Source: an uncultured Ruminococcus sp. (lineage in GTDB: Bacteria; Bacillota; Clostridia; Oscillospirales; Acutalibacteraceae). From it: a DNA stretch of 44,551 bases. This document shows, piece after piece, positions 17,606-33,814 of the stretch. How positions within the stretch are numbered: the stretch's first letter is position 1; every line of letters begins with the position of its first letter. Position numbers and translations under genes: made by a program. Location: NCBI GenBank assembly GCA_902802795.1, contig CADCNI010000018.1, positions 1 through 44,551 of the forward strand, written 5' to 3'. The notes below the pieces were generated by a model. The model was not told the origin of the DNA, did not search any database, and worked only from the letters and a program-made list of their open reading frames with translations.

Positions 17606-17633
17606 TTGACTGAGAAATTTTTAGTGCTATAAT
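17606..17633 (+). promoter_or_regulatory. Promoter of Pel-like polysaccharide operon
   Basis: TTGACT (17606-17611), 16-bp spacer, perfect TATAAT (17628-17633) with an extended -10 TGC at 17625-17627. Transcription would start near 17640, giving a leader of about 65 nt. It is the only strong promoter I see before the run of plus-strand polysaccharide genes. Confidence 0.8.
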
Positions 17634-17704
17634 ATTAACGATAGCTGAATTGCGCCCAAATTCAAATGCTAACCATTACTTTATCAAAGATGGGAGACCT
17701 GTCT

Positions 17705-19489
17705 ATGTTAAAACGAAGCGAATACGTGGTTATGTCGTTGTCATTTGTATTTATGCTTGCCATATTTTTGGTAATCTCCATCAACTACATTTCCGACTCG
17801 GCGGCCAGCAACAACGATTTTACCGATAAGTTTGATTCCTCGGCGCATGTAGCCGATCTCAACAAGCTTGACAAGGATTATCTGATCATCACGGGAGACG
17901 ATGAAGAAGTCAAGGACAATGTCATCAATGCCCTGAATTATGCCAAAAAAGGCTATATGCTTTCTCAGATGGCCTACACGCTCAGCTCGAGCGAGCTCAA
18001 TCAGCTCAAGGGCATTATCGTCACCACGTCAAATCTTTCGTCTCTGGGCAGCATGGACGCACTGATGGCGGCGGTCAACAGAGGCGCCAATGTGTTCTTT
18101 GCGGTCTTGCCAAGGGAAGGTTCCGATGCCTATGACACTTACTGTGAGGCATTGGGCATTGTTTCCAGAACCGGTGAGGCAACCATCGAAGGCTTCCAGG
18201 CATTTGAAGGCATGTATGCGCAGGGTGAGATCGTCTGCAACGATTATCCGCTGACCGTGGAAGATATCCGCGTGGACGCCACCTGCCGCAAGTACATCTT
18301 TGAATATTCTTCCGATCCGGGCGCGGATCAGAGTGAAATGGTGCCGCTGCTGTGGAGAACGGTGTACGGTGACGGCCAGGTGTATGTGCTCAACGCCGAT
18401 TTCATGGAGCAGAAGTACGGCATGGGTCTTTGCATCGCGGTACTCGGCTGCATGGAGACGGAATACGCCTATCCGATCGTGGACGCCAAGGTCAATTATG
18501 TTGACAGCTTCCCCTTCCTCAGCTATGAAAACGGCGACAGCATGATGAAGTTCTACAACAGAGATTCCCAGTCGTTTATCCGCGACCAGGTCTGGCCGAA
18601 TCTGGTAACGATGATGAAGGATTCCGACCTGAAATTCACGGGTCTGTATTACGCGTACATTACCGACGCGGCGATGGAGTCGCAGTTCAACGAGGAAACG
18701 CTTTCCTATTTCAAAAAGCAATTCAGCAAGTACGAATGTGAATTCGGTTTCGGCGGCTACCACAAGGATGTCATGACGGGACATGAATATGAAGAAAAAG
18801 CCATGCAGCGAAGCTATGAGCTTTTCAAATGGAACATGGGCAGCTACAATCTGCGCACGTTCAAGTATTCCACCGAAACGTCTCAGGCGGTGCAGAACGA
18901 AATACTCCAGAAACTCCGGAACATCAGCGTGTATGTTTCCAAGATGGACGGCGACGAGAAGAAGGATTATATCCAGCCGCTTTCCATTGCGCAGAGCAAT
19001 GTGATCAACATTCCGATCATCTGCGAAGAAGTCGCGCCGAGCTACCAGGATTACTGGAAGGCCTGCAACATGGCTTCGGGTCTGGGACTGTCCACCCACT
19101 ATTTCGATCTGTATGACGTCATCACCAACCAGACCAATTACAACTACGAGTGGATGATCTATTCTCAGGATCTGGCCAAAGAGTTCAACCTGCTCAACAG
19201 AGGCACTTCCTGGCTGACCGAGAGAACCTCGGCACAGGCGGGTTATCATGCCAAGAGATATCTGTGCGTGATGCCGGAAATCAAATTTACCGACAAGGAA
19301 CTCACCATTAAGTGTGACAACTTCGACGATACGGCGACGTTTATTGTCAAGACCAATAAACGTCTCAAACCCGACGAGGCCAACTTTGTCTCCGAAAATC
19401 TGAGCAACGGCTTCTATAAGGTCACGGTGCTCAAGCCCGAAGTCACGATCACCCTGATTGACACGGGCAGCCAGCAGTATTTCTATTAA
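17705..19489 (+). CDS. PelA-like membrane-anchored protein (DUF2194-type)
   Basis: 594 residues from the ATG at 17705, chosen because GGGAG lies 8 nt upstream; an in-frame ATG at 17666 has no such site. One N-terminal membrane helix (about residues 5-28) places the rest outside. A Rossmann-like part (DYLIITGDDEEVKDNVINALNYA, then GIIVTTSN and GANVFFAVLPR) precedes a barrel-like part of some 300 residues. Position before pelF-pelG matches the PelA/deacetylase component of Gram-positive Pel clusters, where DUF2194 proteins recur. I cannot find a TFDD motif or a full H-x3-H zinc motif; the likely place reads GFGGYHKD. Deacetylase activity is therefore doubtful. Confidence 0.65.
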   Translation: MLKRSEYVVMSLSFVFMLAIFLVISINYISDSAASNNDFTDKFDSSAHVADLNKLDKDYLIITGDDEEVKDNVINALNYAKKGYMLSQMAYTLSSSELNQLKGIIVTTSNLSSLGSMDALMAAVNRGANVFFAVLPREGSDAYDTYCEALGIVSRTGEATIEGFQAFEGMYAQGEIVCNDYPLTVEDIRVDATCRKYIFEYSSDPGADQSEMVPLLWRTVYGDGQVYVLNADFMEQKYGMGLCIAVLGCMETEYAYPIVDAKVNYVDSFPFLSYENGDSMMKFYNRDSQSFIRDQVWPNLVTMMKDSDLKFTGLYYAYITDAAMESQFNEETLSYFKKQFSKYECEFGFGGYHKDVMTGHEYEEKAMQRSYELFKWNMGSYNLRTFKYSTETSQAVQNEILQKLRNISVYVSKMDGDEKKDYIQPLSIAQSNVINIPIICEEVAPSYQDYWKACNMASGLGLSTHYFDLYDVITNQTNYNYEWMIYSQDLAKEFNLLNRGTSWLTERTSAQAGYHAKRYLCVMPEIKFTDKELTIKCDNFDDTATFIVKTNKRLKPDEANFVSENLSNGFYKVTVLKPEVTITLIDTGSQQYFY

Positions 19490-19508
19490 TAAAGGAGGAA
19501 ATTACTCA

Positions 19509-20945
19509 ATGAAGGTTTGCTTAATAGCGGAGGGCAGCTATCCTTACACCTTCGGCGGCGTTTCCGCCTGGGTTCAGATGCTCATTCAGGGCGTGCCAAA
19601 GGTAGATTTTTCCGTGCAGACGATCGTGGCCAGCCGCGCGGACGCGGCGGAATGTAAATTTGTCATTCCCGCCAATGTCGTCTCCATGCATGACACCTTT
19701 CTGACGGATGACGACGTGGTTCACAAGGTTCGCAAAAAGACCAAGATGAGCAACAAAGAGAAGGACGCGTTCCGTTCGCTGCTCTACGGCAAGAATGTGG
19801 ACTGGGTGACAATCTTCAATTACTTTGAGCATAAGGACGTCTCGATCAACGGCCTGCTCATGGGCAAGGACTTCTACGACGTCGTCGCGGAGTTTTACCA
19901 TGACAAGTATTCCCAGACGGTTTTTGTAGACTTTCTGTGGAACACCCGTTCGCTTTATCTGCTGCTCTTTAAGGTGCTCAAAACCCCGATGGAAGTGTGC
20001 GACATCTACCACTGCGTCGCCACCGGCTATTCCGGCATTCTCGCCGCCAAGGGCAAGGTGCTTTACAACAAGCCGATGATTCTGAGCGAGCACGGTATCT
20101 ACACCCGCGAGCGTGAAGAGGAAATCATCAAGAGCAGTTGGACGCAGGGCATTTACAAGGATATCTGGATCAACTACTTCTACTGCCTTTCCGACTGCGC
20201 GTATTACTACGCCGACAAGATCACGTCCCTTTTCAAAGCGGCGCAGCACATTCAGCTCGAACTCGGCTGCAACCCCGAAAAGACGACGATCATTCCCAAC
20301 GGCGTAAACATCGAAGATTACGAGTCTTTCCCGCGCAAGGACGCAAGCGACCCCTATATCAACATCGGCGCTATGCTCCGTGTAACGCCGATCAAGGACG
20401 TCAAGACGCTGCTGAGCGCCTACAGCTTCGCTAAGGAAGAAGTCCCCGAGCTGAAACTCTGGATCATGGGTCCGACCGAGGAAGACCCTGACTATTACAA
20501 CGACTGTGTGGAAATGGTGGAGGTCAACCATCTGGAAGACGTGGTCTTTACCGGACGCATCAAGCCGAAAGATTACCTCGGCAAGATGGACATCCTGATT
20601 CTGACAAGTATCAGTGAAGGTCAGCCCATCGTTATGCTGGAAGCTATGGCCTGTAGTATCCCTTGTATTGCCACACAGGTCGGTGACTGTGCCGGTCTGA
20701 TCAGAGGCGATCATGATGACATGGGCGACTGCGGCATCGTCACCCCTACCATGAACGTGGCACGTATCGCGCAGGCATTGGTGACGCTCGCCAAGAGTCC
20801 CGATCTTCGTCGAAAGATGGGCGAAATCGGCAAGAAGCGTGTGGCCGATCACTACACCAAGGACGGCTGGCTGCATACCTACGCCGAGATGTACAATCAT
20901 TTCGCGGAGGTTGGTACCACCGTTACGGATCCCTACAAGAAATAA
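19509..20945 (+). CDS. pelF: PelF-type GT4 glycosyltransferase
   Basis: Cytosolic retaining glycosyltransferase (GT-B, family GT4) that polymerises the Pel-type polysaccharide from UDP-sugars. The 478-residue chain begins MKVCLIAEGSYPYTFGGVSAWV, where the EGSYP and GGVS motifs are the PelF signature at the nucleotide-side fold. The C-terminal domain carries NGVN, GRIKPKDY and SISEGQPIVMLEAMACSIPCIA, the E-x7-E-like nucleotide-sugar site. AAAGGAGG lies 9 nt before this ATG; an in-frame upstream ATG inside the previous gene is not supported. It is followed by pelG after 21 bp. In P. aeruginosa PelF uses UDP-GlcNAc/GalNAc; substrate here is not proven. Confidence 0.95.
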   Translation: MKVCLIAEGSYPYTFGGVSAWVQMLIQGVPKVDFSVQTIVASRADAAECKFVIPANVVSMHDTFLTDDDVVHKVRKKTKMSNKEKDAFRSLLYGKNVDWVTIFNYFEHKDVSINGLLMGKDFYDVVAEFYHDKYSQTVFVDFLWNTRSLYLLLFKVLKTPMEVCDIYHCVATGYSGILAAKGKVLYNKPMILSEHGIYTREREEEIIKSSWTQGIYKDIWINYFYCLSDCAYYYADKITSLFKAAQHIQLELGCNPEKTTIIPNGVNIEDYESFPRKDASDPYINIGAMLRVTPIKDVKTLLSAYSFAKEEVPELKLWIMGPTEEDPDYYNDCVEMVEVNHLEDVVFTGRIKPKDYLGKMDILILTSISEGQPIVMLEAMACSIPCIATQVGDCAGLIRGDHDDMGDCGIVTPTMNVARIAQALVTLAKSPDLRRKMGEIGKKRVADHYTKDGWLHTYAEMYNHFAEVGTTVTDPYKK

Positions 20946-20966
20946 ACGGAAGGAAAGAGGCGCTTT

Positions 20967-22544
20967 ATGGCTGGTATAGGTTTTGAATTAAAAAAGCTGA
21001 TGGGCAAGGGCAACATCGTCAACATGATCGCAGGTACGACCTACGCCGTCATGGTTACGATTGGCCCTACCATATTGCTCGCCGGCACACTGATGCTGAT
21101 GTACATGGTGCTGCCGTATTCTATGGAGGCGTTTGCCGACAGAGAATTCCTGTCGTCAACCATTCTTTACGTGTTCATCTTCTCCATGATTATTACCTCG
21201 CCGCTCAACTCGGTATTGTCGAGGTATGTCGCGGATAAAATTTATCAGGAACAGATCTATGACATCATGCCGGCGATCAACGTCGGTCTGGCGCTCAATA
21301 TGGTTCTGGCGTTCTTGGCCTCTCTTTTCATCGTGTTCAGAGAGATTGAAGTGGGCATTGACCCCTTCTTTACGTTCCTGTCCTACTGGTTCTTCATGGT
21401 TATCAATATGTCGCTTTACCTGATGACCTATGTATCCGCACTGAAGGATTACGGCAAAATCGGTATGGCGTATTTCATCGGTATTCTGGCCGCGCTGGTG
21501 TTTGCGATTCTGAGCGTGTATGTTTTCCGCAATGCGGTATCCTACTCCATCCTCGGCTCGATGGTGCTGTGCTTCTCCATCATCGCTACCATGCTGTACG
21601 CCAACCTGAAGACCTACTTCAAGCACTCCAGCAAAAACTACAGCGAGGCGCTCAAATACTTCCTGCGCTTCAAGCCGTTGTTTATCACCAACTTCTTCTA
21701 TACGCTGGGTCTGTACATCCATAACTTTGTCTATTGGAATACCGATTACGGCGCATACATCGGCAACGTCTTCTGGACGTCGCCTTCCTACGACATGGCG
21801 ACCTGTCTCGCACTGTTTACCAACATCTCCACGCTGGTGATTTTCGTTGTCAAGGCGGAAACCTCCTTCTTCGGTTCTTACCAGGCGTATCTTGAGACGG
21901 TCAACGGCGGCGGCGGCGAGGATATCGAACTGGCCAAAAAGAACATGTTCCGCACCCTTAAGAGCGAGCTGTTCTACATCATCCGGTTCCAGTTCATTAT
22001 CACCATCATTATCTTCATCCTCGCGATGATCTTCCTGCCCGACTTCGGCTTTGAAGGCCTCATCCTTTCCATCTATCCGGCACTCGCGGCGGCATACTTT
22101 GTCACCTTCATCATGTACTGTGAAGTCATCTTCCTCTTCTACTTTGACGATGGCGTGGGTACCTGCATGGTGACTGTCGGCTTCTGCCTCGGAACACTGA
22201 TCGCCACCATCGTTACCACTTATTTCAACGTGGTGTTTGCGGGTCTGGGTCTTTTCTTCGGCGCGTTTGTCGGCTGGACCATCGGCTATATGCGTCTGCG
22301 CAGAGTCATCAACAAGATCGACGAGCAGATTTTTTGCCGCGGCGCGATTGTCAACACCACTTCCGCCGGCAAGATGACCAAGAGACGTATTGAGGAAGCC
22401 GACCAGCAGCTCAATTATCTTAAGCTCACCAAGGAAGAAAAGATGAAGGCGGACGCGGAACAGCAGAAGCAGAAGATGTTTGCCGCGCAGAAGGCGGAAA
22501 AAGAGGCGGCACTGAAAAACGCGGCTGCCAGTGCCCAAAAATAA
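20967..22544 (+). CDS. pelG: PelG polysaccharide transporter
   Basis: Integral membrane protein of the MOP/polysaccharide-transporter superfamily that exports the growing Pel-type chain. It starts MAGIGFELKKLMGKGN, the hallmark N-terminus of PelG, and has about twelve hydrophobic segments in 525 residues, close to the family length. The C-terminus extends as a charged Lys/Glu/Ala-rich coiled-coil tail (about 465-525: KLTKEEKMKADAEQQKQK...), longer than expected and possibly a docking region. AGGAAAGAGG precedes the ATG. Downstream comes a non-coding repeat insertion before the GT8 genes. Confidence 0.95.
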   Translation: MAGIGFELKKLMGKGNIVNMIAGTTYAVMVTIGPTILLAGTLMLMYMVLPYSMEAFADREFLSSTILYVFIFSMIITSPLNSVLSRYVADKIYQEQIYDIMPAINVGLALNMVLAFLASLFIVFREIEVGIDPFFTFLSYWFFMVINMSLYLMTYVSALKDYGKIGMAYFIGILAALVFAILSVYVFRNAVSYSILGSMVLCFSIIATMLYANLKTYFKHSSKNYSEALKYFLRFKPLFITNFFYTLGLYIHNFVYWNTDYGAYIGNVFWTSPSYDMATCLALFTNISTLVIFVVKAETSFFGSYQAYLETVNGGGGEDIELAKKNMFRTLKSELFYIIRFQFIITIIIFILAMIFLPDFGFEGLILSIYPALAAAYFVTFIMYCEVIFLFYFDDGVGTCMVTVGFCLGTLIATIVTTYFNVVFAGLGLFFGAFVGWTIGYMRLRRVINKIDEQIFCRGAIVNTTSAGKMTKRRIEEADQQLNYLKLTKEEKMKADAEQQKQKMFAAQKAEKEAALKNAAASAQK

Positions 22545-22565
22545 AGAAATACAAACCATACCAGG

Positions 22566-22894
22566 CGATTGTAAAAGTAAATGAAAAAGAAGAAAAGCCA
22601 AGCGCAATTAGCGAGCGAATGCGAGCGTGGGAGTCCAGCCGATGACGGCAAGCGTCATCTCGGACTGGTCCTCCTGGCAGGTCAAGGGCAGAGCCCTTGC
22701 AGGGGAGTGGGGACAGCGTCCCCACAAGGGAGGCGGAAGCCGACCGAGCAGAACGAGCTAAGACCCAAGACGGAAATAGGCGAATACGGCAACAGCGCCA
22801 TATTACGATTTGCCTTGCTCCAAACGGAGAAAAATCATCCCTTTTCCCATTGTCCAAACCCCGAATGTACGCCGTTTTTCAACTTTTACAATCG
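22566..22894. repeat. Insertion with 13-bp terminal inverted repeats, copy B of dispersed repeat
   Basis: The gap between pelG and the first GT8 gene is bounded by a perfect 13-bp inverted repeat (22566-22578 with 22882-22894). Inside, about 22600-22770 matches the left arm of the palindrome at 33903-34397: AGCGAGCGAATGCGAGCGTGGGAGTC, a variable hairpin, CCTCCTGGCAGGTCAAGGGCAGAGCCCTTG and further short hairpins, then GGCGAATACGG, which in the large palindrome lies at the centre. The rest diverges. There is no convincing gene here. It interrupts the polysaccharide operon without blocking the next ribosome site. Confidence 0.7.
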
Positions 22895-22926
22895 GCTGAC
22901 AAACCATACGCAAAGGAGGCGGCAGC

Positions 22927-23811
22927 TTGAATATTGTGATTACAGTGGATGACAATTACATCCGGCCGGCGCTGATCATGCTGGAATCGCTGTTTGAGCA
23001 AAACCGGACGCCGATGCATATTTATCTGCTGCACTCCAACGTATGCGCGGAAAATCTGGAAAAACTCACCCGTCATGTGGCGGCGCTGGGAGGAACCTTC
23101 TCGGATATACGGGTGGACGGGGCGTTGTTTGAGGGCGCGCCGGTCAACAAGTATTTCACCAAGGAGATGTATTACCGCCTGCTGATTTACCGGCTGCTGC
23201 CGGAGGAGGAACGGGCGCTCTATCTCGATCCTGACATTATCATCCGGGGAGAGATCGACGATCTTTACCGCATGGATTTTGAAGGCAAAATGATGATAGC
23301 CGTTCCGGACTATCTGGGCGATTCCTATTACCCCGAGCGCAAGAAAAATCTGGGACTGGGGGAGGAATACCGCTACATCAATTCAGGCGTGATCCTCTTT
23401 AACATTCCGCTTATGCGCGAACAGTTTGATCTGAACGACATGTTCTCGTTTCTGGCGCGCGAAGGCAGCGGGTATGAGTTTCCCGACCAGGATCTGATCA
23501 ACGTCTACTTCAAAGACCGCATCAAATACGCCCCGCGGGAGTACAACTTCACCACCGAGTATGTCAGCGTGGGAGATTTCCTGCACTATGTCTTCAGTCC
23601 GCGCTACCGACGTTCCGAGCGGGTTGTCATTGCTCACTACATGGGCAAGTGCAAGCCGTGGAAGCCGTCGTACTACTATAAATATTACGGTATCTACTAT
23701 TCTTATCTGAAAAAATACCTCACGCCGGAAGAAAAACGGCAGCTTCGGCATCGGCCGTGGCTGGTATTCCGGTCGGTTGTCCAGGCGGTGTGGCGAGTAT
23801 TGTTCGGATAA
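22927..23811 (+). CDS. GT8-family glycosyltransferase (first of tandem pair)
   Basis: A retaining GT-A transferase of family GT8 (LgtC/glycogenin-like), 294 residues, cytosolic with a basic C-terminus that may touch the membrane. Seen: N-terminal MNIVITVDDNYIRPALIMLESL, metal-binding DPD at 101-103 in ALYLDPDIII, YINSGVILFN, and FPDQDLINVYF followed by a late HYMGKCKPWK that supplies the conserved His and Lys. The start is TTG, 7 nt after AAGGAGG. It probably adds galactose or glucose to a carrier or chain in the Pel-like locus. It is clearly paralogous to the next gene (shared APVN--FTKEMYYRLL), so the pair arose by duplication. Confidence 0.9.
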   Translation: MNIVITVDDNYIRPALIMLESLFEQNRTPMHIYLLHSNVCAENLEKLTRHVAALGGTFSDIRVDGALFEGAPVNKYFTKEMYYRLLIYRLLPEEERALYLDPDIIIRGEIDDLYRMDFEGKMMIAVPDYLGDSYYPERKKNLGLGEEYRYINSGVILFNIPLMREQFDLNDMFSFLAREGSGYEFPDQDLINVYFKDRIKYAPREYNFTTEYVSVGDFLHYVFSPRYRRSERVVIAHYMGKCKPWKPSYYYKYYGIYYSYLKKYLTPEEKRQLRHRPWLVFRSVVQAVWRVLFG

Positions 23812-23832: not shown

Positions 23833-24753
23833 ATGAACGTGCTGGTCACAGTGTCCGAGAACTATTGCGGATATATGCTGACGATGCTCAAGTCCCTGTT
23901 TCAGCACAACAAATGCCGTGTGACGGTTTATCTGATGCATTCCCGCATCAGTGACGCCATGCTTGAAAAGGTGCGGCAGTACATTGAGGGCAAAGGTCAT
24001 GTGTTTGAGCCGGTTCGGGTAGGCGCGGACATGTTTGACGACGCGCCGGTGAATATGCATTTCACCAAGGAAATGTATTACCGGCTGCTGGCGAGCCGCA
24101 TGCTTCCCGAGAGCGAAGACCGTGTGCTGTATCTTGACCCGGATATCCTGATCCGCGGATCGGTGGAGGAATTCTATAACCTACCCTTTGACGGCAAGAT
24201 GCTGATCGCGATGCCCGATCCCCCGCAGATCAATGATCCCAAGTGTCCCGACAACCGTCCGCACTGGCAGCGGCTGGGGATTCCGGAAAGCTCCACCTAC
24301 ATCAACAGCGGCGTGCTGCTGCTGAATCTGGCGCTCATGCGGGAGAAAAACTTTGACGTCAGCGGTATATTCGAGATCATCAACGAAAAGAGCGCCGACC
24401 TGATTTATCCCGACCAGGACGCGATCAATGTGTATTTCCGGGATTCGATGAAGATCTGGAACAACCTGTACAACTACAATCCCGGACTACTCGCAAACGA
24501 GGTGGTCAAATGGGGGCTGAGCAAGAAGTACCGGCGGCGGGATAATCCCATCATCGTTCATTTCATGGGACCCGTCAAGCCATGGAGCATACACTACCGC
24601 AACAAATACTGCTTTGAGTATCAGGCGGTCTACAAGGAATTTGCTCCGCTGGGCTATCGGCTGCTCTGTCCGTTCCGACCGCTGGTGGCGGTGTGCGGAT
24701 ATGTGCTGACGGTGACGTGCATGGTGCTGCATGTGCAGCGTCCCGGCAAATGA
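23833..24753 (+). CDS. GT8-family glycosyltransferase (second of tandem pair)
   Basis: 306-residue GT8 transferase with the same plan as its upstream paralogue: MNVLVTVSENYCGYMLTMLKSL, DPD at 102-104 in VLYLDPDILI, TYINSGVLLLN, YPDQDAINVYF and HFMGPVKPW. It differs by a Cys- and Val-rich hydrophobic C-terminus (VAVCGYVLTVTCMVLHV), suggesting membrane attachment. AAAGGAGGG lies 7 nt before the ATG. It follows the first GT8 after 21 bp. The two may add successive sugars. A 130-bp gap follows, with only a weak CCCGT/ACGGG hairpin that could trim transcription. Confidence 0.9.
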   Translation: MNVLVTVSENYCGYMLTMLKSLFQHNKCRVTVYLMHSRISDAMLEKVRQYIEGKGHVFEPVRVGADMFDDAPVNMHFTKEMYYRLLASRMLPESEDRVLYLDPDILIRGSVEEFYNLPFDGKMLIAMPDPPQINDPKCPDNRPHWQRLGIPESSTYINSGVLLLNLALMREKNFDVSGIFEIINEKSADLIYPDQDAINVYFRDSMKIWNNLYNYNPGLLANEVVKWGLSKKYRRRDNPIIVHFMGPVKPWSIHYRNKYCFEYQAVYKEFAPLGYRLLCPFRPLVAVCGYVLTVTCMVLHVQRPGK

Positions 24754-24883: not shown

Positions 24884-27109
24884 GTGGGTACAATTAAAGT
24901 TTTGATTGTAGGTTCATATGGTTTCTTTACCAACACACTGGTGCAGCGTCTTTCCAAGGAAGGCTGCGAAATCTATATGATAACGGGAAAAAATTCTAAA
25001 TTGAAGGGCAGAGGTCTTCCGAGACACATCAACTACGATTTTGCTCTGGACGATCCGCTGATCGAAAACATCATCGACAGCATCGGCCCGGACGCCATGG
25101 TATTCATGGGCGCGCAGGATACCGGATTTGAGTGGAACAGCAACGCCGACGCGGCGGTGTTTAACGCGGCTGTGTCCAACATCCTTACCTGTGCCAGCAA
25201 TGCCGGCGCCAAGCACCTGGTGTATCTTTCCTCCACCGACGTGTACGGTACGGATTACGATACGCCTATCACCGAAAAGAACAAGCCCGCGCCGACCTCC
25301 ATCAAGGGTCTTACCCTGCTCAACGGTGAAGGTCAGTGCAAGATCTACAACGACAACACGGGTCTGAAATCCATCATTCTCCGTTTGCCGATGGTCTACG
25401 GCCCTCAGGCGAATACCGAAGAGCAGCTCAATTTCATGAGCAACTGTTTCCTCTATGCCAAGATGGGGCTTCCCTTCGAGTGCGACCTCGATATGGAATA
25501 CAAAACCATCTTCATCGGTGACGCGGTGGACGCTGCCTACAGAGCCATAGCCAATACCTCCATTCCGAGAGGCACCTATAATGTTGACGGTAACAGCTAT
25601 GTTTCCAACAGAGACGTCGTTAAGATGGTGGAGCAGATCAGCGGCAGCAAGCTGCATGTGGTGGACACCAAGTCTGCCGGTAAGGGCTGCACCTGTAATC
25701 CGGTCGGTTCGCTCTATCAGAAGGCGACGGAATATACCCCGATCGTCACACTCGAAAAGGGTATGGAGCGCACCTATAAGTGGGTCAACAGCAATTTCAG
25801 CGCGCTCCAGGAAAATTACGCCGCCAAGAAAAAGCGCGGTGACAGCGCGGCATGGAACGAAAGCAAAAAGCGCATGAAGGAGATCGCCAAGGGTCTGCTT
25901 GCCTATGTGGAGAGCATCGCGCTGTGTGCCATCGCCTGTCTCGGCACCTATTTTGCCAGCGAATACACCATGCTGAACGGCCTCGACTTCTTCGTGATTT
26001 ACATTATCATCATGTCGGTCGTTTATACCATCACGCATTCCTACATTTCGATTTTCCTGTCATCCATCATGTATGTCGTCATGAAGATGGTTACAGGTAT
26101 GGAGTTTGCCGACATCATTCTGGACTACAGCACGCTCGTTAAGATTCTGTTCTTCTTCCTGGTCGGTATTCTCGTCGGCTACAGCAAGGACAGACTCAAA
26201 CTCAGAAACACCGAGCTTCTGGAGGAAAAGGCCGCTCTCCAGGAGGAACTCACCCGTATTTACGACATTTCCGAGAGACACATCCAGATCAAGAAGATGT
26301 TCGAGGAACGACTGATCAACTACGACAACTCCATTGCCAAGGTTTACTCCATTGTTTCCCAGCTCGACCTGCTCGACTCGGAAAAGATCGTCAACTCTGC
26401 TCTGGACGTTATTACGCAGATCATGGGCGTGCAGGATGTGGCGATTTACGTCAAGAGCAACGAGGGTCTTTACCGTCTGGCAGGCGCTTCATCCAGACGC
26501 GCACAGAAGATGAGAAACATCATCAACCTCGAAGACTACGAACAGCTCGAAGGCGTGGTGCTGGAAGAAAGAATCTTCGTCAACCGCAAGCTCGATCCCA
26601 ATCTGCCCTCGATGGTGGCGCCTGTTTTCTCCGAGCAGAAGATGATCTACATGATCATGCTCTTCAATATGGAGTTCGACAAGATGACGCTCTATCAGGA
26701 AAATCTCTTCTCGGTTCTCTCCAAGATTATCGCTTCCAGCTTCGAGAAAGCCTACCGTTATCAGAACGACACCAAAGACGCGCGTTATGTACCCGGTACC
26801 AATGTGCTTATCGCCAGCGCGTTTACGGAGGTTGTTAAGACCAAGCTCGGCGGCACAGGTTCCAACATCGCCGACTTTGCGGTTCTCCGCACAAGAGTGG
26901 ACGATCCTTCGCAGCTTATGGAAAAGGGTGCGGCTCTGGGCGGCATTCTTCGCGACAACGACTATGTCGGTCTCAGCGAGAGCGATCCCAACGAGCTGCT
27001 CATGCTGCTCAACAACACGACCGAAAAGGATCTGCCCTTCGTTTACAAGAAGATCGAACGCATTGATTTGAAGGCAGAGGTGGTATCATTAGATGAATAC
27101 AGGAATTAA
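24884..27109 (+). CDS. pelD: SDR-PelD fusion: c-di-GMP receptor with degenerate epimerase domain
   Basis: 741 residues from a GTG behind AAGGAAGG. Residues 1-305 are an extended SDR/epimerase-like fold (GSYGFFT at 10-16, SSTDVYG at 116-122), but the YxxxK dyad is replaced by Lys141 and Leu145 and the third Rossmann Gly by Thr16. Four membrane helices follow (about 339-360, 366-385, 386-406, 419-438), then a coiled coil (438-480), a GAF domain (about 490-627) and a GGDEF-like domain (630-741). There, RxxD (Arg690-Asp693) stands where the c-di-GMP inhibitory site is expected, while the GGDEF signature reads as a non-catalytic ESDPNE. That layout after the SDR part is PelD. It should activate polymer export on binding c-di-GMP with the PelE-like protein, whose gene overlaps by 17 bp. 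Confidence 0.85.
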   Translation: MGTIKVLIVGSYGFFTNTLVQRLSKEGCEIYMITGKNSKLKGRGLPRHINYDFALDDPLIENIIDSIGPDAMVFMGAQDTGFEWNSNADAAVFNAAVSNILTCASNAGAKHLVYLSSTDVYGTDYDTPITEKNKPAPTSIKGLTLLNGEGQCKIYNDNTGLKSIILRLPMVYGPQANTEEQLNFMSNCFLYAKMGLPFECDLDMEYKTIFIGDAVDAAYRAIANTSIPRGTYNVDGNSYVSNRDVVKMVEQISGSKLHVVDTKSAGKGCTCNPVGSLYQKATEYTPIVTLEKGMERTYKWVNSNFSALQENYAAKKKRGDSAAWNESKKRMKEIAKGLLAYVESIALCAIACLGTYFASEYTMLNGLDFFVIYIIIMSVVYTITHSYISIFLSSIMYVVMKMVTGMEFADIILDYSTLVKILFFFLVGILVGYSKDRLKLRNTELLEEKAALQEELTRIYDISERHIQIKKMFEERLINYDNSIAKVYSIVSQLDLLDSEKIVNSALDVITQIMGVQDVAIYVKSNEGLYRLAGASSRRAQKMRNIINLEDYEQLEGVVLEERIFVNRKLDPNLPSMVAPVFSEQKMIYMIMLFNMEFDKMTLYQENLFSVLSKIIASSFEKAYRYQNDTKDARYVPGTNVLIASAFTEVVKTKLGGTGSNIADFAVLRTRVDDPSQLMEKGAALGGILRDNDYVGLSESDPNELLMLLNNTTEKDLPFVYKKIERIDLKAEVVSLDEYRN

Positions 27110-28052
27110 CCTCGAATACATTATCAGCCATTTCCGGTTTACGCTTAACACGCGGGATCCCAACTTCATTTATCAGATCATCCTTGTCAACACGGCGCTG
27201 GTGCTGCTGTATTTTGTGTTCTTTACACTGATCGGCAAGTTCAAGGCGGCGCTCTGCAAGTCGATCGTCATGCTGTTGACGCCGCCCTTTGGTGTGATCT
27301 GCTTTTTCCTCAATTTTATCATCGGACTGTTTGACCGCAAGTCGGACATCGACTACCTGGAACTGACCTTCAGCAAGGAAAAGAGAGAGTTTGCCCAACA
27401 GACCGACTATGAGACGGAAAAGGAATTCGTTCCGCTGGAAGAAGCGCTCATTATCTCGGATGTCGAGGATAAGCGCCGGGCGCTGCTCAACGTGCTGAAA
27501 GCCGACGTTTCCAACAACATGAAGTCGCTCGTCAAGGCACTTGACAACGACGACGCGGAAACCGCTCACTATGCGGCCGCGGCGCTCATGGACGTGCTGC
27601 AAAAATATTCCAAGAAGCTGTCGGGGCTTTCGGTCAAGTACCAGGAAAATCCCGAAGACGCCGACGTCAACAAGGAATACGCCGACACGACCTACGAATA
27701 TATCAGCAGCGGCGTTCTGGGCGAGATCGAGGTCAAAAAGTACGCCCATCTGTATGTGGATCTGATTGATAACCTCAACAAGTATCATCCGGAGATGCTG
27801 GATACCGAGCAGTACAAGAACGTGGTGGACTGTCTGCTGACCATCGGCCGCTATGATGACGCTGACAAATGGGCCAATCTCTCGATTGACCGCCAGCCCA
27901 ACATAGAACAGTCTTATCTCAACGCGCTCAACGTCAAGTATAAGACGGAACAGTGGGATGATTTCAAGGAAGTTATGCAGAAGATGCTCAAATCGGGTGC
28001 ACAGCTCTCCGATAAGGGCATAGGCGTGATTCGTTTCTGGAATCGCAAGTAA
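27093..28052 (+). CDS. PelE-like membrane protein with TPR-type helices
   Basis: 319 residues. Two hydrophobic helices near the N-terminus (about 24-49 and 58-80) are followed by a cytosolic all-helical region with repeat-like pairs (ALNVKYKTEQWDDFKEVMQKML, CLLTIGRYDDADKWANLSID) typical of TPR-like solenoids. In Pel systems PelE has this build and works with PelD and PelG in the inner-membrane complex. The start ATG lies inside the end of the SDR-PelD gene (17-bp overlap), so the two are translationally coupled, which supports the assignment. Sequence identity to PelE cannot be judged by eye, so the symbol is withheld. Confidence 0.7.
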   Translation: MNTGINLEYIISHFRFTLNTRDPNFIYQIILVNTALVLLYFVFFTLIGKFKAALCKSIVMLLTPPFGVICFFLNFIIGLFDRKSDIDYLELTFSKEKREFAQQTDYETEKEFVPLEEALIISDVEDKRRALLNVLKADVSNNMKSLVKALDNDDAETAHYAAAALMDVLQKYSKKLSGLSVKYQENPEDADVNKEYADTTYEYISSGVLGEIEVKKYAHLYVDLIDNLNKYHPEMLDTEQYKNVVDCLLTIGRYDDADKWANLSIDRQPNIEQSYLNALNVKYKTEQWDDFKEVMQKMLKSGAQLSDKGIGVIRFWNRK

Positions 28053-28343: not shown

Positions 28344-30746
28344 GTGTTTCAGAAAGTGAAATGTATCAATTATTTCTGCACGGCCGTGAGAAACAATATC
28401 TGGGCCTTTATCTGGTTTACGGTAGCATATGCCATTGTGTTTATCATGATACCGGCCAAGATCCTCAATCTTCGCCTGTGTGACGGGAATTTTCTGGACA
28501 ATGCATTGATAAGCATTCTTGTCAGCCAGACGACGCTGACATGTTTGGTGTATGTACTTTCCTTTATGAAAATGTACAACACCCTTACTTTGGTATTGGC
28601 CTTGATTGTGACAATACTGTTCTATTTCAAATTCAAGTACAGAATCAGCTATCGGCAGAAGCTCAATTCGTTTATCTACACGTTTTCAGACGTGATCAAC
28701 GGACAGTTGAAAATTACGCTGATCATCCGCGACTTTTTCAGCACCAGACTCGACAACGCTTCCAACGCTGTAAAGCGGTTTATCAGGTTTTACTTTGACA
28801 AAAACGTAGTGTACCACATCATTGGAACGGTTTGTCTTCTGGTGCTGGGTGTGCGCCGCGGCTATTTTGCCATGACCAGTGAGAGTTTTCCGACCTCCGA
28901 CGTGGCGGTTCATACCTCATGGATCAATTTCCTGGACGCGGGCTATATTTTCAGCGATGGCATCTATCCCTTTGCCATGCACAATGTGGTGTCTTCGTTT
29001 GCCAAGCTGACGCGTATTGACGTGGTAACCGTCATGCGGTTCATCGGTCCGTTTAACGCGATACTGATGGGCGTCATGCTCATGGCGTTTATCACCCGCA
29101 TCTTTAAAAGTCCGGCCGCGTCCATTATCACCGGTCTGATTTACTGCGTGAGCAGCTTCGGCAACGGTGCGGTGGTGGATCGTATGATCTTCTCGGTCCC
29201 ACAGGAATTCGGTATGTTCTACATTATCCCCACGGCTTATTTCATGATACGGTTCCTTGAAGAAGAGAAAACCCTCGACGGCCTTGCCTTTGCGTTTGCC
29301 GCCTCCATGACGGTGGCGGGCCACTTCTATGACGCGATCTTTGCGGTGCCGCTCTGTCTGGCCATCGTGATACCTTACATCCCCCGTCTTTTCAAAAATG
29401 GCATCTTTATCTTTATCAAGATGGTGCTCAGCGTTATTTTAGCGGCGGTTATTTCGCTTGCGCCTTTGATGGTCGGTCTGATGATGGGATATCACTGGCA
29501 GGGTTCTCTTGACTGGGCTGTCAGTATGATGGAATCAGGCGGCGACGACGCGGAAAGCAGCGAAAGTGAAGACAAGCAGAACAACCAGTCTGCCTCCTCT
29601 TCATCCGAATCGGGGGAAGAAGAACAAAAGGAGTCGTTCATACAAAAATCCGTCAACTCATTCGGTTGGATGGCGAAGCAATACACCGATTACTGGGGTA
29701 CCGTGATTTTAGTGTGCATCGGTTTGTCGCTGGCACTCGGTATTCTTGCCCTGATTATCCTGAAAGAAAAAATGGTGGGCAGGGTGGCCATAGGTGTGGC
29801 GCTGAACATGATATTCTTTAATTATCTTCTCATGTACCCGACCTATTACGGTCTTCCCTCTCTCATTGCCACCGATCGAACCATCTACTATCTGGCTTAT
29901 CTCGGGGCGATGGTACTGGGCGTGCCGTTCGGCGTGTTCTGGACTTTCTTTGAGGAGAAGCTGCGCGGTTTCCGCTGGGTTGGTTCCATAGCCATCGTAA
30001 CAGCCACCGCCTGTCTGATTGTCTTTACCGGCGCCACTTTCAGATCAAGCGCTTATTTCCGTTTGACCTATTCCTCTGTGACCGAGCAGTATTATAAGAT
30101 TAAAAACACGCACCGCAAGGACACATGGACGATCGTTTCTACGGTTGACGAACTGTCACTGACGCGAAACAAGGGCTGGCATTACGAGCTGTGGGAATTC
30201 ATTTTCTCGATGGAGCAGTATGAGCCCACCCGTGTGGTGCAGATTCCGACGGAATATGTGTATTTTGTGGTGGAAAAGCGTCCCCTCAAATATGCGGATA
30301 CGACCTATATGGGACAGCCGTTGAGTATCTATGGCAGAATCAGCAAATCGGCGGCCGACCAGTTGTTAACGGAGCGCACCGTTCGCACATACCGCAAGAG
30401 CGACTACTATTCTGATTATGAAATCAGAACGGCGATCATGTCCAAGGCGTATTTCTGGGCGGAGCAGTATATGCAATACTTCCCCGATCAGATGAGGTTG
30501 TATTATGAAGACCGCGATGTTGTCATTTACGAGATCAAGCAGAATATGTATGCCCTGAATAACTTCGCCATTGACTACGGTTACAATACCATCACAATGG
30601 AAGAATGGCTGCTCGAGCATCCCGAAGCGGTCGGTAATGAGCAGACCCCTGTGGTTTCCGACAGTGATCTTGCGGCTGACGAGGCCTCGCTTGCCGACGG
30701 CGGAGATTCGACAGCAGACGCCGGACAAACCGCCGACAATTCCTGA
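28344..30746 (+). CDS. Large polytopic membrane protein, GT-C glycosyltransferase-like
   Basis: 800 residues with about a dozen hydrophobic segments in the first 570. An early outside loop reads PTSDVAVHTSWINFL followed by GIYPFAMHNVV, the acidic-then-His pattern of GT-C lipid-linked-sugar transferases and polysaccharide polymerases. An acidic Ser/Glu-rich insert (about 398-431) divides the membrane region, and the soluble C-terminal part (about 590-770) ends in an Asp/Ala/Thr-rich disordered tail. The start is uncertain: GTG at 28344 lacks a clear ribosome site; a GTG at 28356 is possible. It lies just after the structured RNA candidate. It could transfer a sugar outside or polymerise repeat units. 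No PelB/PelC-type parts are present, as expected without an outer membrane. Confidence 0.7.
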   Translation: MFQKVKCINYFCTAVRNNIWAFIWFTVAYAIVFIMIPAKILNLRLCDGNFLDNALISILVSQTTLTCLVYVLSFMKMYNTLTLVLALIVTILFYFKFKYRISYRQKLNSFIYTFSDVINGQLKITLIIRDFFSTRLDNASNAVKRFIRFYFDKNVVYHIIGTVCLLVLGVRRGYFAMTSESFPTSDVAVHTSWINFLDAGYIFSDGIYPFAMHNVVSSFAKLTRIDVVTVMRFIGPFNAILMGVMLMAFITRIFKSPAASIITGLIYCVSSFGNGAVVDRMIFSVPQEFGMFYIIPTAYFMIRFLEEEKTLDGLAFAFAASMTVAGHFYDAIFAVPLCLAIVIPYIPRLFKNGIFIFIKMVLSVILAAVISLAPLMVGLMMGYHWQGSLDWAVSMMESGGDDAESSESEDKQNNQSASSSSESGEEEQKESFIQKSVNSFGWMAKQYTDYWGTVILVCIGLSLALGILALIILKEKMVGRVAIGVALNMIFFNYLLMYPTYYGLPSLIATDRTIYYLAYLGAMVLGVPFGVFWTFFEEKLRGFRWVGSIAIVTATACLIVFTGATFRSSAYFRLTYSSVTEQYYKIKNTHRKDTWTIVSTVDELSLTRNKGWHYELWEFIFSMEQYEPTRVVQIPTEYVYFVVEKRPLKYADTTYMGQPLSIYGRISKSAADQLLTERTVRTYRKSDYYSDYEIRTAIMSKAYFWAEQYMQYFPDQMRLYYEDRDVVIYEIKQNMYALNNFAIDYGYNTITMEEWLLEHPEAVGNEQTPVVSDSDLAADEASLADGGDSTADAGQTADNS

Positions 30747-30763
30747 TTGTCCGGAGGTAGGCC

Positions 30764-31759
30764 ATGATTAGTGTGATTGTACCCGTTTACAACTGCGGCG
30801 GATTTTTGCAGAGATGCGTCCGTTCGCTGCGTGAGCAGACCTATCAGGATTTACAGATCATTCTGGTGGACGACGGTTCCACTGACGATACCCCTGCGAT
30901 GTGCGACGCGCTGGCGGCGGAGGACGGCAGAATCACCGTTCTTCACCGCCCCAACGGCGGCGTATCTTCCGCGCGGAATGCGGGATTGGCGGCGGCCAAA
31001 GGCGAGTATGTGGCTTTTGCTGACGCGGATGATTATGTCAATCCGGACCATATGATGAATTTGTATGATGTGATGCAGAGACACGGGTGCGATGTGGCGA
31101 TCGGCAGCTATCTCACCGAAAGCGAGAACAAATGTTCTCCGCCCGTGTCCCGTCTGTCCAAAGACGGAAAAACAGGCACAAGCGGTTACAATGAAGTATG
31201 TTATGGCCATGACAGCGCGGTCTGCGAATTACTCGCGGGCGGCGCTGTCGGCGGTTTTGTATGGAACAAGCTGTACCGCCGGGAACTGTTGGAGGGGGCT
31301 TCCTTCCGCGGCGACATCAAAATTCTGGAAGACCTGCTGTTTAATTTCGACGTTTTCCAAAAGGTCAGAACCGCCGTTTATTCGGCGTATCCCTCCTATC
31401 ACTACATCCAGCGGGGACAGAGTGCCATGCACCGGGGATTCGGGGAAGAACACCGTCAAATGGTGCGCACGGCGCGTGAAGTCTGTCAGGCGCTGGCGGG
31501 GGAGAGCAGGGAACTGGCCGATGCGGGCAAGGGACTGCTCGCCACCACGATTCTCTGGGTGGTGGATGTGATGGCGGAATACGGCCCGTATGATAAAGCG
31601 CTCGTGCGGGCGTACCGCGCGGAATTCCGGCCGCTGCGAAAGACATACCTGCGGCTGGGGCGCGTGCCGCTGAGTTATCGGGCGAGCGCGATATTTTTCT
31701 CGATGGGATATCCGGTATTCAAAATTGCCGTCAATACGGTGAGAAAGCTGAAGGGGTGA
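30764..31759 (+). CDS. GT2-family glycosyltransferase
   Basis: Inverting GT-A transferase, 331 residues. N-terminal ISVIVPVYNCGGFL, nucleotide-binding DDGS (36-39 region), RNAGLAAAKGEYVAFADADDY with the metal-binding DAD at 87-89, then VWNKLYRRELL and ILEDLLFNFDVF that match the acceptor-side part of bacterial exopolysaccharide GT2 enzymes. A GGAGG site precedes the ATG 17 nt after the previous stop. The C-terminus is basic and amphipathic, perhaps membrane-associated. Donor and acceptor unknown; likely adds a sugar to a lipid-linked or nascent chain in the same locus. Confidence 0.93.
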   Translation: MISVIVPVYNCGGFLQRCVRSLREQTYQDLQIILVDDGSTDDTPAMCDALAAEDGRITVLHRPNGGVSSARNAGLAAAKGEYVAFADADDYVNPDHMMNLYDVMQRHGCDVAIGSYLTESENKCSPPVSRLSKDGKTGTSGYNEVCYGHDSAVCELLAGGAVGGFVWNKLYRRELLEGASFRGDIKILEDLLFNFDVFQKVRTAVYSAYPSYHYIQRGQSAMHRGFGEEHRQMVRTAREVCQALAGESRELADAGKGLLATTILWVVDVMAEYGPYDKALVRAYRAEFRPLRKTYLRLGRVPLSYRASAIFFSMGYPVFKIAVNTVRKLKG

Positions 31760-31764
31760 AGAGC

Positions 31765-33003
31765 ATGAAGGACAACAAGAACGCTGCCAGCGTGCAGGAC
31801 AAAAAGAAGATTTTGTTTGTCACCAATACGATGGGACGGGCCGGAGCGGAAAAATGCCTTCAGGCGTTGCTGGAACTGCTCGACCCAGCGCAGTACGATC
31901 TCTCGGTTTACTCGATTATCAACCGCGGGGAGCTTTACAGCGATATGCCGGCATACGTGCATATTCTCAACAAAAATCCCTGTACCAAGTCGGTGCTGGA
32001 CAACGCGGGTCTTGCCGCGATTGCCCGACAAATCCTGTGGAGTCTTATCAAAAAATTTCACTTTATCACGTATATACCTTATTTTTTCCGCGTGCTGGCG
32101 CATCAGATCAAAATCAGGCGGCTGGATTTCAGCAAGCTTTTCTGGATGCTGCTGGCGAGAAGCGCCAAGCGTTTTGATGAGGAATATGACCTGGCCGTGG
32201 CCTTTATCGAAGGCGCCGCCACCTATTACGTAGCCGATTATGTCAAAGCGCGGAAAAAGGCAACTTATGTGCATATCGACTATCTGGCGGCGGGTTATGA
32301 CCCCAAGCTGGACAAAAAATATTATGACAAATTTGACCGCGTGTTTTGTGTTTCCGACACAGTGCGGCAGGTCTTTCTCAAAGCCTATCCGGCATATGAA
32401 AACAAAACCTTCTTCTTTCACAACATGGTGCCAAGGGAGCGTATTCTGCGGCTTGCCAAGGAGGGCGAAGGCTTTGCTGACGGCTTTGACGGACTGCGGA
32501 TTCTCACCGTCGGCCGACTGCACTATCAGAAAGCGTATGATTTGGCGATTCCGGCGCTGGCGGAGCTGCGTCGGCGCGGTCATAACGTGCGCTGGTATGT
32601 GATCGGGGAAGGCGCGGAGGAAGATAACCTGCGCGCCCTGATTAAGCAGAACGGCGTGGAGGACAGCTTCATTCTGATGGGTTGTTTTGCCAATCCCTAT
32701 CCTTACATCGCGGGTTGCGACATCTACTCGCAGGTGTCACGCTTTGAGGGGTGGTGCATTGCTCTGGCGGAATCGCTGGTACTGGCGCGTCCCGTTCTGG
32801 CTTCCCGTTGTGCCGGCAACGAGGAACAGGTGACTGACGGCGAAACCGGCGTGCTGATTGACCTTTCCACAGAGAACATCGTGGAGGGTATGGAAAAACT
32901 GATCACGTCGCCTGAATTGCGGGCAAAATTCACACAAAATCTCAGCGGTGTGACGCTTGATTTTAAAAAAGATCTGGAAATGCTTTACGCATTGATCGAT
33001 TGA
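31765..33003 (+). CDS. GT4-family glycosyltransferase
   Basis: Retaining GT-B transferase of about 412 residues. N-terminal KKILFVTNTMGRAGAEKCLQALLELL has the Gly-rich acceptor loop; the C-terminal half has ILTVGRLHYQKAYDLAIPALAEL, YVIGEGAEEDNLR, and SRFEGWCIALAESLVLARPVLAS, the E-x7-E nucleotide-sugar site. I choose the ATG at 31765, 8 nt after AAGGGG, rather than the GTG three codons upstream. It starts 5 bp after the GT2 stop, so the genes are one transcript. Role inferred: sugar addition to the locus polysaccharide. Confidence 0.93.
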   Translation: MKDNKNAASVQDKKKILFVTNTMGRAGAEKCLQALLELLDPAQYDLSVYSIINRGELYSDMPAYVHILNKNPCTKSVLDNAGLAAIARQILWSLIKKFHFITYIPYFFRVLAHQIKIRRLDFSKLFWMLLARSAKRFDEEYDLAVAFIEGAATYYVADYVKARKKATYVHIDYLAAGYDPKLDKKYYDKFDRVFCVSDTVRQVFLKAYPAYENKTFFFHNMVPRERILRLAKEGEGFADGFDGLRILTVGRLHYQKAYDLAIPALAELRRRGHNVRWYVIGEGAEEDNLRALIKQNGVEDSFILMGCFANPYPYIAGCDIYSQVSRFEGWCIALAESLVLARPVLASRCAGNEEQVTDGETGVLIDLSTENIVEGMEKLITSPELRAKFTQNLSGVTLDFKKDLEMLYALID

Positions 33004-33031
33004 TTTGGTTAAATGATGGGGGTGAGTATCC

Positions 33032-33814
33032 ATGACATGCCTGGACAGAAAAACGCTGATCCTGATTCCCGCTTACAATGAAAAGGAAAGCATTGTTCAT
33101 GTACTCAGCAATATACACAGGGAGTGCGGCGATGTAGATGTGCTGGTCGTCAACGACGGGTCACGCGACAACACCGCCGAGATGGCCGAAAAAGCCGGCG
33201 CGATTGTGGTATCACATATCTACAATATGGGGTACGGCGTTTCGCTGCAAACGGGTTACAAATACGCGGTAGATCATGACTATGAGTTCATCATCCAGAT
33301 GGATGCGGACGGACAACATGATGTGTGTAATATCAGAACGATTTATCACGAACTGACGCAGGGAGAGCATCCCTATGACATTGTGATCGGATCCCGCTTT
33401 TTGACGCATGACAGCAAGATGAAGGTGGGTTTTGCCAAAAAAGTTGCCATTGGCTTTTTCAATATGGCGATCAAGATGGTGACGCACAAACGCTTTACTG
33501 ACCCCACATCGGGCTTGCAGGGACTCAGCCGCCGCGCGTTTACGGCCTATTCGCTCTACGATAATTTCGACACCAATTATCCCGACGCCAACATCATTAC
33601 CAAAATGCTGCTCAACGGGTACTGGATGCGAGAGGTTCCGGCGATTATGCATTCCCGTGAAAGCGGCGTGAGTATGCACAGCGGCCTGCGCAAGAATATT
33701 GCCTATATGTTCACTGTCACGCTGAATATCGTAGTGGTGGTCATGCAGTTCCACCTGATCAAGAAGGGCAGAAAGGACATCGTGGAGGATTTTGAAGTCG
33801 GCTTTTCCACATGA
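33032..33814 (+). CDS. DPM1/GtrB-like GT2 glycosyltransferase
   Basis: 260 residues resembling dolichyl/undecaprenyl-phosphate sugar transferases: LILIPAYNEKESI, VVNDGSRDNT (NDGS 41-44), MDADGQHD (DADG 91-94), VIGSRF and the RxFTDPTSGLQGLSRRA segment. A short hydrophobic end (IAYMFTVTLNIVVVVMQFHLI) is a single possible membrane helix. Such enzymes load a sugar on undecaprenyl phosphate, which outside GT-C enzymes then use; the 800-residue GT-C-like protein upstream is a fitting partner. The DUF2304 partner often found next to such genes is absent. Last gene of the locus; a strong terminator follows. Confidence 0.92.
   Translation: MTCLDRKTLILIPAYNEKESIVHVLSNIHRECGDVDVLVVNDGSRDNTAEMAEKAGAIVVSHIYNMGYGVSLQTGYKYAVDHDYEFIIQMDADGQHDVCNIRTIYHELTQGEHPYDIVIGSRFLTHDSKMKVGFAKKVAIGFFNMAIKMVTHKRFTDPTSGLQGLSRRAFTAYSLYDNFDTNYPDANIITKMLLNGYWMREVPAIMHSRESGVSMHSGLRKNIAYMFTVTLNIVVVVMQFHLIKKGRKDIVEDFEVGFST

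Follow-up and report, generated by a model that had tools for sequence, protein, structure and literature searches.

A Pel-type locus of Clostridia that may finish its polymer by transmembrane glycosylation in place of deacetylation

The synthase-made Pel polymer has been described as modified by deacetylation and hydrolysis, and a Gram-positive example is the pelDEA(DA)FG cluster of Bacillus cereus ATCC 10987 (PMC7112168, PMC13254593). Fusion of a short-chain dehydrogenase/reductase (SDR) domain to PelD has been published for clostridia, streptococci and actinobacteria, and pel-like loci of Roseburia lie in a larger 'capsule or teichoic acid' cluster, for which PMC7112168 left open whether the product is Pel; divergent Gram-positive pel clades may make other polymers (PMC7112194). 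Streptococcus intermedius has a Pel system of the CotH type and a Pel-disrupting hydrolase, SIR_1591, with a DUF4832 domain (PMC12345266). Outside the Pel systems, the closest described machineries are GacI/GacJ/GacK/GacL and the lactococcal WpsA/WpsB with the GT-C protein WpsJ (PMC8035078, PMC10821137). Here we analysed contig CADCNI010000018.1 of an uncultured Ruminococcus sp. (GenBank assembly GCA_902802795.1; 2.8 Mb in 99 contigs, 98% complete). The window, 44,551 nucleotides long, is the entire contig 18 of this genome, and it carries a pel locus of eleven + strand genes at 17666-33814.

The locus shares PelF, PelG, the PelD I-site and a PelA homologue with the B. cereus cluster and has a PelE-like gene, but its PelA lacks the equivalents of D263, H350, H354 and H488, a GT-C-like protein, a polyprenyl-phosphate sugar synthase-like (DPM1-like) GT2 protein (hereafter DPM), a GT4 and other glycosyltransferases are added, and no CotH, VTC or DUF4956 gene was found in it (compared with PMC7112168 and PMC13254593). 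We consider it moderately probable, from comparison of sequences, that the locus represents a distinct clade in Clostridia, the GT-C type, in which a Pel-type polymer would be finished by transmembrane glycosylation, not deacetylation, and would bear exchangeable side chains.

PelA residues and the GT-C clade

The genes run in the order PelA/DUF2194, PelF, PelG, GT8, GT8, SDR-PelD, PelE, the GT-C-like protein (hereafter GTC), GT2, GT4 and DPM. A preliminary description of the window had named these genes, and the coordinates of the open reading frames (ORFs) together with Pfam and NCBIfam matches bear out the presence, strand and place of all of them; the span it gave, 17606-33814, is right at its end, but the first gene begins at 17666.

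That first gene (17666..19489, +) encodes the PelA-like DUF2194 protein already recognised there (PF09960, E 5e-42). The DUF2194 profile matches PDB 9zau, an entry named 'predicted membrane protein', over 551 positions (E 2.7e-87). The residue spacing reported in PMC13254593 fits the aligned chain, and on that ground we regard the entry as B. cereus PelADA. The PelADA residues given in that paper are D262, D263, H350, H354, H488 and D491; the substitutions H350A, H354A and H488A abolish activity, and motif mutants fail to restore biofilm adherence in B. cereus (PMC13254593). We scored D262, D263, H350, H354 and H488 as the catalytic set. The window's PelA has D-S-G-K-D in place of DDHHH, so that the DD pair reads DS, the HxxxH motif reads GxxxK and the catalytic His is an Asp. 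By this residue comparison it is not a catalytically competent deacetylase: the metal and acid residues are lost, and deacetylation by PelA would be lost with them.

To place the locus, a quick IQ-TREE phylogeny was built from 89 rows of the 147 PelG matches, with ORFs above 700 amino acids trimmed to 520 residues. The 57 loci left out were short duplicates, near-identical members of the window's genus (L031, L035-L039, L041, L042) and L049, together with L181 and L183, in which PelG is cut or in pieces. Among the 46 GT-C-positive rows, which include eight of the window's genus, two were labelled positive by us, namely L043, whose contig ends before GTC, and L130, whose GTC lies on another contig and whose PelA is cut; L144 was counted as GT-C-negative, and L184, which has no full PelG, was added in some tallies to give 47 GT-C-positive loci. 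GT-C-negative status rests on searches of the stretch and mostly of the whole genome, and for five Bacilli loci (L048, L050-L053) of the stretch alone. The GT-C-positive rows form one clade of 47 rows (support 98 in the SH-like approximate likelihood ratio test), in which the sole GT-C-negative row is L144, a locus with no pel genes found other than pelE and pelG. GTC is present in 44, GT4 in 37, DPM in 36 and DUF2304 in 31 of the 46 positive rows, and none of the four occurs in the 43 negative rows; the figure for DPM is a lower bound, as several positive stretches stop before that gene. The co-occurrence with pelFG on which the preliminary description had staked its extra genes is thus borne out for GTC, GT4 and DPM.

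CotH, VTC and DUF4956 are known accessory genes of Gram-positive pel loci. They are found in 37, 35 and 35 of the 43 GT-C-negative loci, respectively, against one of 47 positive loci each, so that the GT-C module occupies the place that CotH/VTC/DUF4956 take in other loci. The single positive case, L140, unites the whole CotH/VTC/DUF4956 set with a GT-C gene. Among the 347 genomes searched in a related family (that of G322), 59 have PelG (E <= 1e-30) and 33 have GTC (E <= 1e-6), and in 31 of these 33 both share a contig within about 10 kb, at distances of about 5-9 kb. In G555 they are on separate contigs, and in G399, the only one of 288 PelG-less genomes with GTC, this gene adjoins pelD, pelE, pelA and a pelF fragment. 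A second GTC is present in G551 (L120), with no pel gene seen in the short stretch covered. GTC is missing from 27 of the 59 PelG genomes. A class-wide draw of 393 genomes, among them that of the window, gave 14 with PelG, the window's genome being one of these, and in the window's own family 5 of 150 genomes had a PelG above the cut-off; among 14 PelG genomes chosen from the class and this family, three (G036, G307, G409) have GTC. On the basis of these GTC and PelG searches, members of the GT-C type occur in at least four family codes (f1, f28, f49, f52).

Of the loci with a PelA row, none of the 46 GT-C-positive ones but 34 of the 38 GT-C-negative ones have the complete PelA catalytic set. 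The four exceptions are L014 and L182, which are the sister pair of the GT-C clade, L057, in which two of the five residues are changed, and L164, where the genes are in pieces. No PelA row of at least 380 amino acids was available for L130 (GT-C-positive, cut by the contig end) or for L144, L156, L058, L059 and L065 (GT-C-negative). L183, absent from the tree, is likewise GT-C-positive with a dead PelA, that is, one without the set. A second, dead PelA in tandem was seen in five GT-C-negative loci; the other copy keeps the full set in L162, L163 and L166, is fragmented in L164 and is cut off in L181; a tandem pelA with one dead copy is a possible intermediate toward a non-catalytic PelA.

The GT-C module and the Pel core

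GTC (28344..30746, +) is a polytopic protein of 800 amino acids with no Pfam or NCBIfam family above cut-off, and its assignment draws on Foldseek and conserved residues. Compared with the PDB by Foldseek, the AlphaFold model of the window's protein has GT-C enzymes at ranks 1-16 (oligosaccharyltransferase complexes, PglB, DPY19, EmbB), and that of GTC from L045 has AftA, oligosaccharyltransferase and DPY19 at ranks 1-11, with a best E of 1.1e-3 in each case; in translocon/oligosaccharyltransferase entries the matching chain was taken as STT3. The models also match EmbA/EmbB and ArnT, and beyond the top ranks come other folds at low probability. A GTC profile run against PDB sequences gave chance matches only (E 0.09 or worse). 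In all 45 GTC proteins of at least 600 amino acids, D186, H190, W193, G206, Y208, P209, H213, R280, E288 and H327 are invariant, and GT-C enzymes typically have an invariant Asp in their first outside loop. From these low-confidence models and residues, GTC looks like a GT-C-like transferase. Its start in the window lies about 15 residues later than in relatives and the first eight residues mismatch, through real variation or assembly. An ORF between PelE and GTC (28067-28483) was left out of the gene count.

Downstream on the same strand, as had been described, follow GT2 (30764..31759, +; PF00535, E 1e-41), GT4 (31756..33003, +; PF00534) and DPM (33032..33814, +; PF00535). The nearest NCBIfam family of DPM is the polyprenyl-P-GalNAc synthase PpgS (96 bits, below the cut-off of 370), and among solved structures it matches ArnC and dolichol-P-mannose synthase (E 1.3e-8 to 3.3e-7). 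All 11 other GT-C-positive loci inspected have, between PelG and GT4, a hydrophobic ORF of 121-160 amino acids, which exceeded the Pfam cut-off for DUF2304 (PF10066) in three of three tested. We equate the small transmembrane partner of GacJ/WpsB-like kind with PF10066 and take GacJ to be a DUF2304 protein. Two candidate flippases of the GtrA family (PF04138) are encoded on contigs 2 and 22 of the genome, outside the window. GTC, GT4 and DPM belong to the Pel system and resemble a transmembrane glycosylation module. Like the Gac and Wps systems, the module combines a GT2 resembling C55-P-sugar synthases with a GT-C-like protein, the small DUF2304 protein of most GT-C-positive loci parallels their small partner, and cytoplasmic glycosyltransferases may lengthen the unit, as proposed for Wps (PMC8035078, PMC10821137). 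The acceptor would differ, being a synthase-made Pel-type chain where Gac and Wps act on rhamnan or teichoic acid.

PelF and PelG, whose hallmarks had been noted, remain in their families when searched. PelF (19509..20945, +, with an alternative TTG start at 19458), a GT4-type synthase, scores 322.9 bits against the NF038011 PelF equivalog (cut-off 100) and matches PF11997; its EX7E motif is retained in the window and in all aligned PelF proteins, 45 GT-C-positive and 41 GT-C-negative. PelG (20967..22544, +; PF16933, E 3e-119), the polymer exporter, is the single match in the genome. In ten loci (L048, L050-L053, L158, L160, L162, L163, L166) a profile detects PelG fused to a C-terminal CotH kinase domain, confirmed as PF08757 in L048 and L158; CotH is there tied directly to the exporter and may act on the emerging polymer.

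PelD (24884..27109, +; PF01370 and alignment) overlaps the PelE-like gene (27093..28052, +), as the preliminary description had said. It has an N-terminal SDR with degenerate motifs and a degenerate GGDEF-like end with RxxD; the GAF and membrane parts were assigned by eye. The Tyr/Lys pair of the SDR occurs in none of 41 GT-C-positive and 10 of 36 GT-C-negative PelD proteins. A degenerate SDR on PelD is also reported for clostridia and streptococci, and the fusion was ruled out as a novelty since it is already published (PMC7112168). The RxxD I-site (R690, D693) is present in 12 of 12 aligned PelD proteins, in all 41 GT-C-positive ones and in 32 of 36 GT-C-negative ones. Since this site is retained and the genome has four GGDEF matches, all outside the window, control by cyclic di-GMP (c-di-GMP) through PelD is plausible. 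Against the PDB, the best 60 of 200 matches of the PelD profile were SDR-type enzymes only, with no sequence link to the solved structure of Pseudomonas aeruginosa PelD. The PelE-like protein matches no curated Pfam or NCBIfam family and was assigned by blastp to PelE-position proteins of distant pel loci (23-32% identity; 31.6% over 215 amino acids in L051). All other long ORFs of the run are assigned as well; no PelB or PelC was among them, no profile search for these having been made.

In the pathway that we propose, PelF would synthesise and PelG export a Pel-like chain, under the control of c-di-GMP at the PelD I-site, as homology and retained residues suggest. Unlike B. cereus Pel, the chain would not be de-N-acetylated by PelA, because PelA lacks the metal and acid residues; PelA may persist as a non-catalytic handler of the polymer outside the cell. 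DPM, in relatives mostly with a DUF2304 partner, would load undecaprenyl phosphate with a sugar, GT4 and variable GT8 and GT2 enzymes may lengthen this lipid-linked unit in the cytoplasm, and after flipping the GT-C protein would transfer it to the emerging chain outside the membrane. The charging by DPM and the transfer by GTC are modelled on the GacI/GacJ/GacL and WpsA/WpsB precedents.

Conservation, exchange and alternative explanations

Fifteen named relatives (L031-L044, L049) with PelG 83-97% identical to that of the window (in L049 over 111 residues only) retain its gene order, TrkA-TrkH-PelA-PelF-PelG-GT8-GT8-PelD-PelE-GTC-GT2-GT4, as far as each stretch extends; L041 is apparently a contig of G036. 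Where contig and stretch reach, GT8a is present in 14 of 14, GT8b in 13 of 13, PelD in 13 of 13 and GTC in 12 of 12. DPM comes next in the genus relative G036 (L013) and starts at the edge of L034, the other stretches of the genus stopping earlier. Between the window and G036, PelF, PelG, PelD, PelE and GT4 are 85-91% identical, GT8b 83%, DPM 82%, GT8a 74%, PelA 70%, GTC 66% and GT2 60-68% by piece, so that PelA, GTC and GT2 change fastest. Chance neighbourhood of the extra genes was ruled out by the conserved order in the genus and the co-occurrence with pelFG. The tandem GT8 genes (GT8a, 22927..23811, +, PF01501, E 1e-36; GT8b, 23833..24753, +, PF01501, E 2e-34) do split pelFG from pelDE in the window and its genus, as first noted. 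They were rejected as a defining trait of the type, GT8 being present in 9 of 46 GT-C-positive loci (the window's genus and L171, with a single GT8) and in none of 43 negative ones. What survives of the original interpretation is a Pel-type synthesis and export locus with GTC, GT4 and DPM in the system; the GT8 pair is not general.

By their position among pelD, E, A, F, G and DPM, the 44 GTC genes fall into ten order strings, or about seven true placements when a missing DPM is ignored. GTC lies on the strand of the pel genes in all 44 loci, and in 27 of them (17+7+2+1) it falls between pelE and the end of the A-F-G block. In distance correlations with PelG, for which one representative of the window's genus was used, r was 0.93 for PelD and 0.89 for both PelA and PelF. 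Given PelG, the divergence of GTC goes best with that of PelA (partial r 0.30, 0 of 500 shuffles as high), and partial r is 0.16 for DPM (2/500), 0.12 for PelE (8/500) and 0.11 for PelD (23/500). L128 and L131 belong to two genomes that share a genus code; their PelD, PelE, PelF, PelG, GT4 and DPM are 91-99% identical, but GTC is 27% identical and differently placed, and PelA is 50% identical. GTC and PelA vary fast and can probably be exchanged jointly, and the side chains therefore probably differ between strains. Their co-variation is compatible with two proteins in contact with one and the same finished polymer and, equally, with a GT-C protein that acts on PelA.

Several observations weigh against a Pel-type chain that is glycosylated outside the membrane. 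The GTC models are weak, with a mean predicted local distance difference test score of 61.4 for the window and a worse 54.6 for L045 and with low TM-scores, and neither gave a Foldseek match at E <= 0.001. DPM is under the cut-off of every named synthase family. The window's own locus was found to contain neither a DUF2304 gene, a single copy of which lies elsewhere in the genome, nor a flippase gene, the GtrA matches being on other contigs and Wzx not having been searched for; in the latter it also differs from Gac and Wps (PMC8035078, PMC10821137). GTC (r 0.54) and DPM (r 0.60) track PelG more weakly than the core genes do, GT4 (partial r 0.22, 0/500) and PelF (0.20, 0/500) also co-vary with GTC, and L128/L131 is the only such exchange among the ten closest pairs listed. 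Finally, the sister pair L014/L182 has a dead PelA and CotH but no GTC, which suggests that the loss of PelA deacetylase preceded the gain of GT-C. The loss and the gain are one or two ancestral events, so the tallies measure consistency along a clade, not a repeated independent association. A more specific version, in which the clade swapped Pel deacetylation and the CotH module for extracellular glycosylation, GTC and PelA form an exchangeable, serotype-like cassette and the dead PelA is the acceptor-recognition subunit of GT-C, is put forward tentatively and falls short of even odds in our judgement.

A heteropolymer made without outside decoration, in which GT8, GT2 and GT4 supply sugars for a single backbone or make a primer, the product leaves through PelG and the GT-C/DPM pair serves a nearby glycan such as teichoic acid or a wall polymer, appears unlikely. 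Several cytoplasmic-type glycosyltransferases of varying kind do occur in these loci, the window has LicD and glycerophosphotransferase genes some 6-10 kb further downstream, and the Roseburia loci were interpreted by Whitfield 2020 as belonging to capsule/teichoic clusters. This explanation sits poorly with GTC being within the pelE..A-F-G span in most loci and on the pel strand in every one; in addition, GTC is absent from all GT-C-negative loci, and the one PelG-less genome of the related family that has it still has pelD, pelE and pelA. It is likewise improbable, and we hold it a doubtful reading, that the target of GTC is the inactive PelA, which it would glycosylate or join to the chain, with PelA as polymer anchor. 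GTC diverges with PelA above the five other genes tested, both differ in L128/L131, and the top fold matches of the first model are protein glycosyltransferases (oligosaccharyltransferase, PglB, DPY19); the models, however, also match AftA, EmbA/EmbB and ArnT, whose substrates are polymers or lipids, and the co-variation is equally expected if both proteins merely bind the same polymer. An ordinary Gram-positive pel locus whose neighbours are incidental and whose product is deacetylated alpha-1,4-GalNAc/GalN Pel would account for the PelF, PelG, PelD and PelE homologues and the SDR-PelD fusion described in PMC7112168, but it is already disfavoured and very improbable given the lost PelA residues, mutants of which fail to restore biofilm adherence in B. 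cereus (PMC13254593), the missing CotH module in 46 of 47 loci and the GT-C module present in the clade.

Genomic setting and meaning of the GT-C type

The closest named relatives are metagenome-assembled genomes titled uncultured Ruminococcus, Clostridiales or Clostridia, several of which derive from goat abomasum or omasum or carry names with RUG, which presumably stands for rumen genomes; the window's genus is mainly a ruminant-gut one. Upstream of the locus are TrkA/TrkH potassium uptake genes (14484-17291), also found in genus relatives whose stretch extends there, and a 1199-amino-acid ORF on the - strand (6293-9892) without a Pfam or NCBIfam match. GalE is encoded on the other strand at 4393-5400 (446 bits, above cut-off) and could provide UDP-galactose-type sugars, a putative tie to the pel locus. 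Downstream, at 34807-43921, are DUF421, PPK2, transglutaminase, LicD, nuclease and glycerophosphotransferase genes, which were not counted with the locus. Stealth-type phosphotransferase genes, a possible further decoration, lie near seven of 47 GT-C-positive loci (L128, L131, L134, L136, L151, L152, L184) and none of 43 others. In L046 (Eubacterium plexicaudatum ASF492), GTC, PelA, PelF and GT4 are each in two pieces, by decay or assembly errors.

A DUF4874/DUF4832 protein is encoded in 31 of 47 GT-C-positive and 20 of 43 GT-C-negative loci; none is in the window's locus, and the genome has one DUF4832 match elsewhere. This domain, shared with SIR_1591, hints that the backbone stays Pel-like in GT-C-positive loci. 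Besides it, the S. intermedius system has the degenerate SDR-PelD in common with the GT-C type, but it has CotH and no GGDEF, whereas the GT-C type retains the I-site and, outside L140, lacks CotH (PMC12345266). The Roseburia loci are alike in combining pelDEAFG with GT1/GT2 genes, and L045, from an uncultured Agathobacter metagenome-assembled genome, may be of that type; GT-C, DUF2304 and inactivation of PelA go unmentioned in the main text of PMC7112168, its S7 figure excluded. Earlier publications already cover the Pel core, SDR-PelD and the occurrence of pel loci within capsule-like clusters (Roseburia). We recognised no earlier account of the GT-C module, of the dead-PelA clade or of the module swap in the open PMC literature (supplements, including S7, excluded), where DUF2194 is mentioned in two papers, neither of them on Pel by its title.

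If the proposed glycosylation of a Pel-type chain is true, these bacteria would have retained the synthase and traded the deacetylase for lipid-linked glycosylation, giving a neutral, branched matrix polymer. This would bear on the loci for which PMC7112168 did not settle whether Pel is the product. PelA would gain a second, non-catalytic role, and gut Clostridia would gain a strain-variable surface glycan relevant to their contact with host, phage and community.

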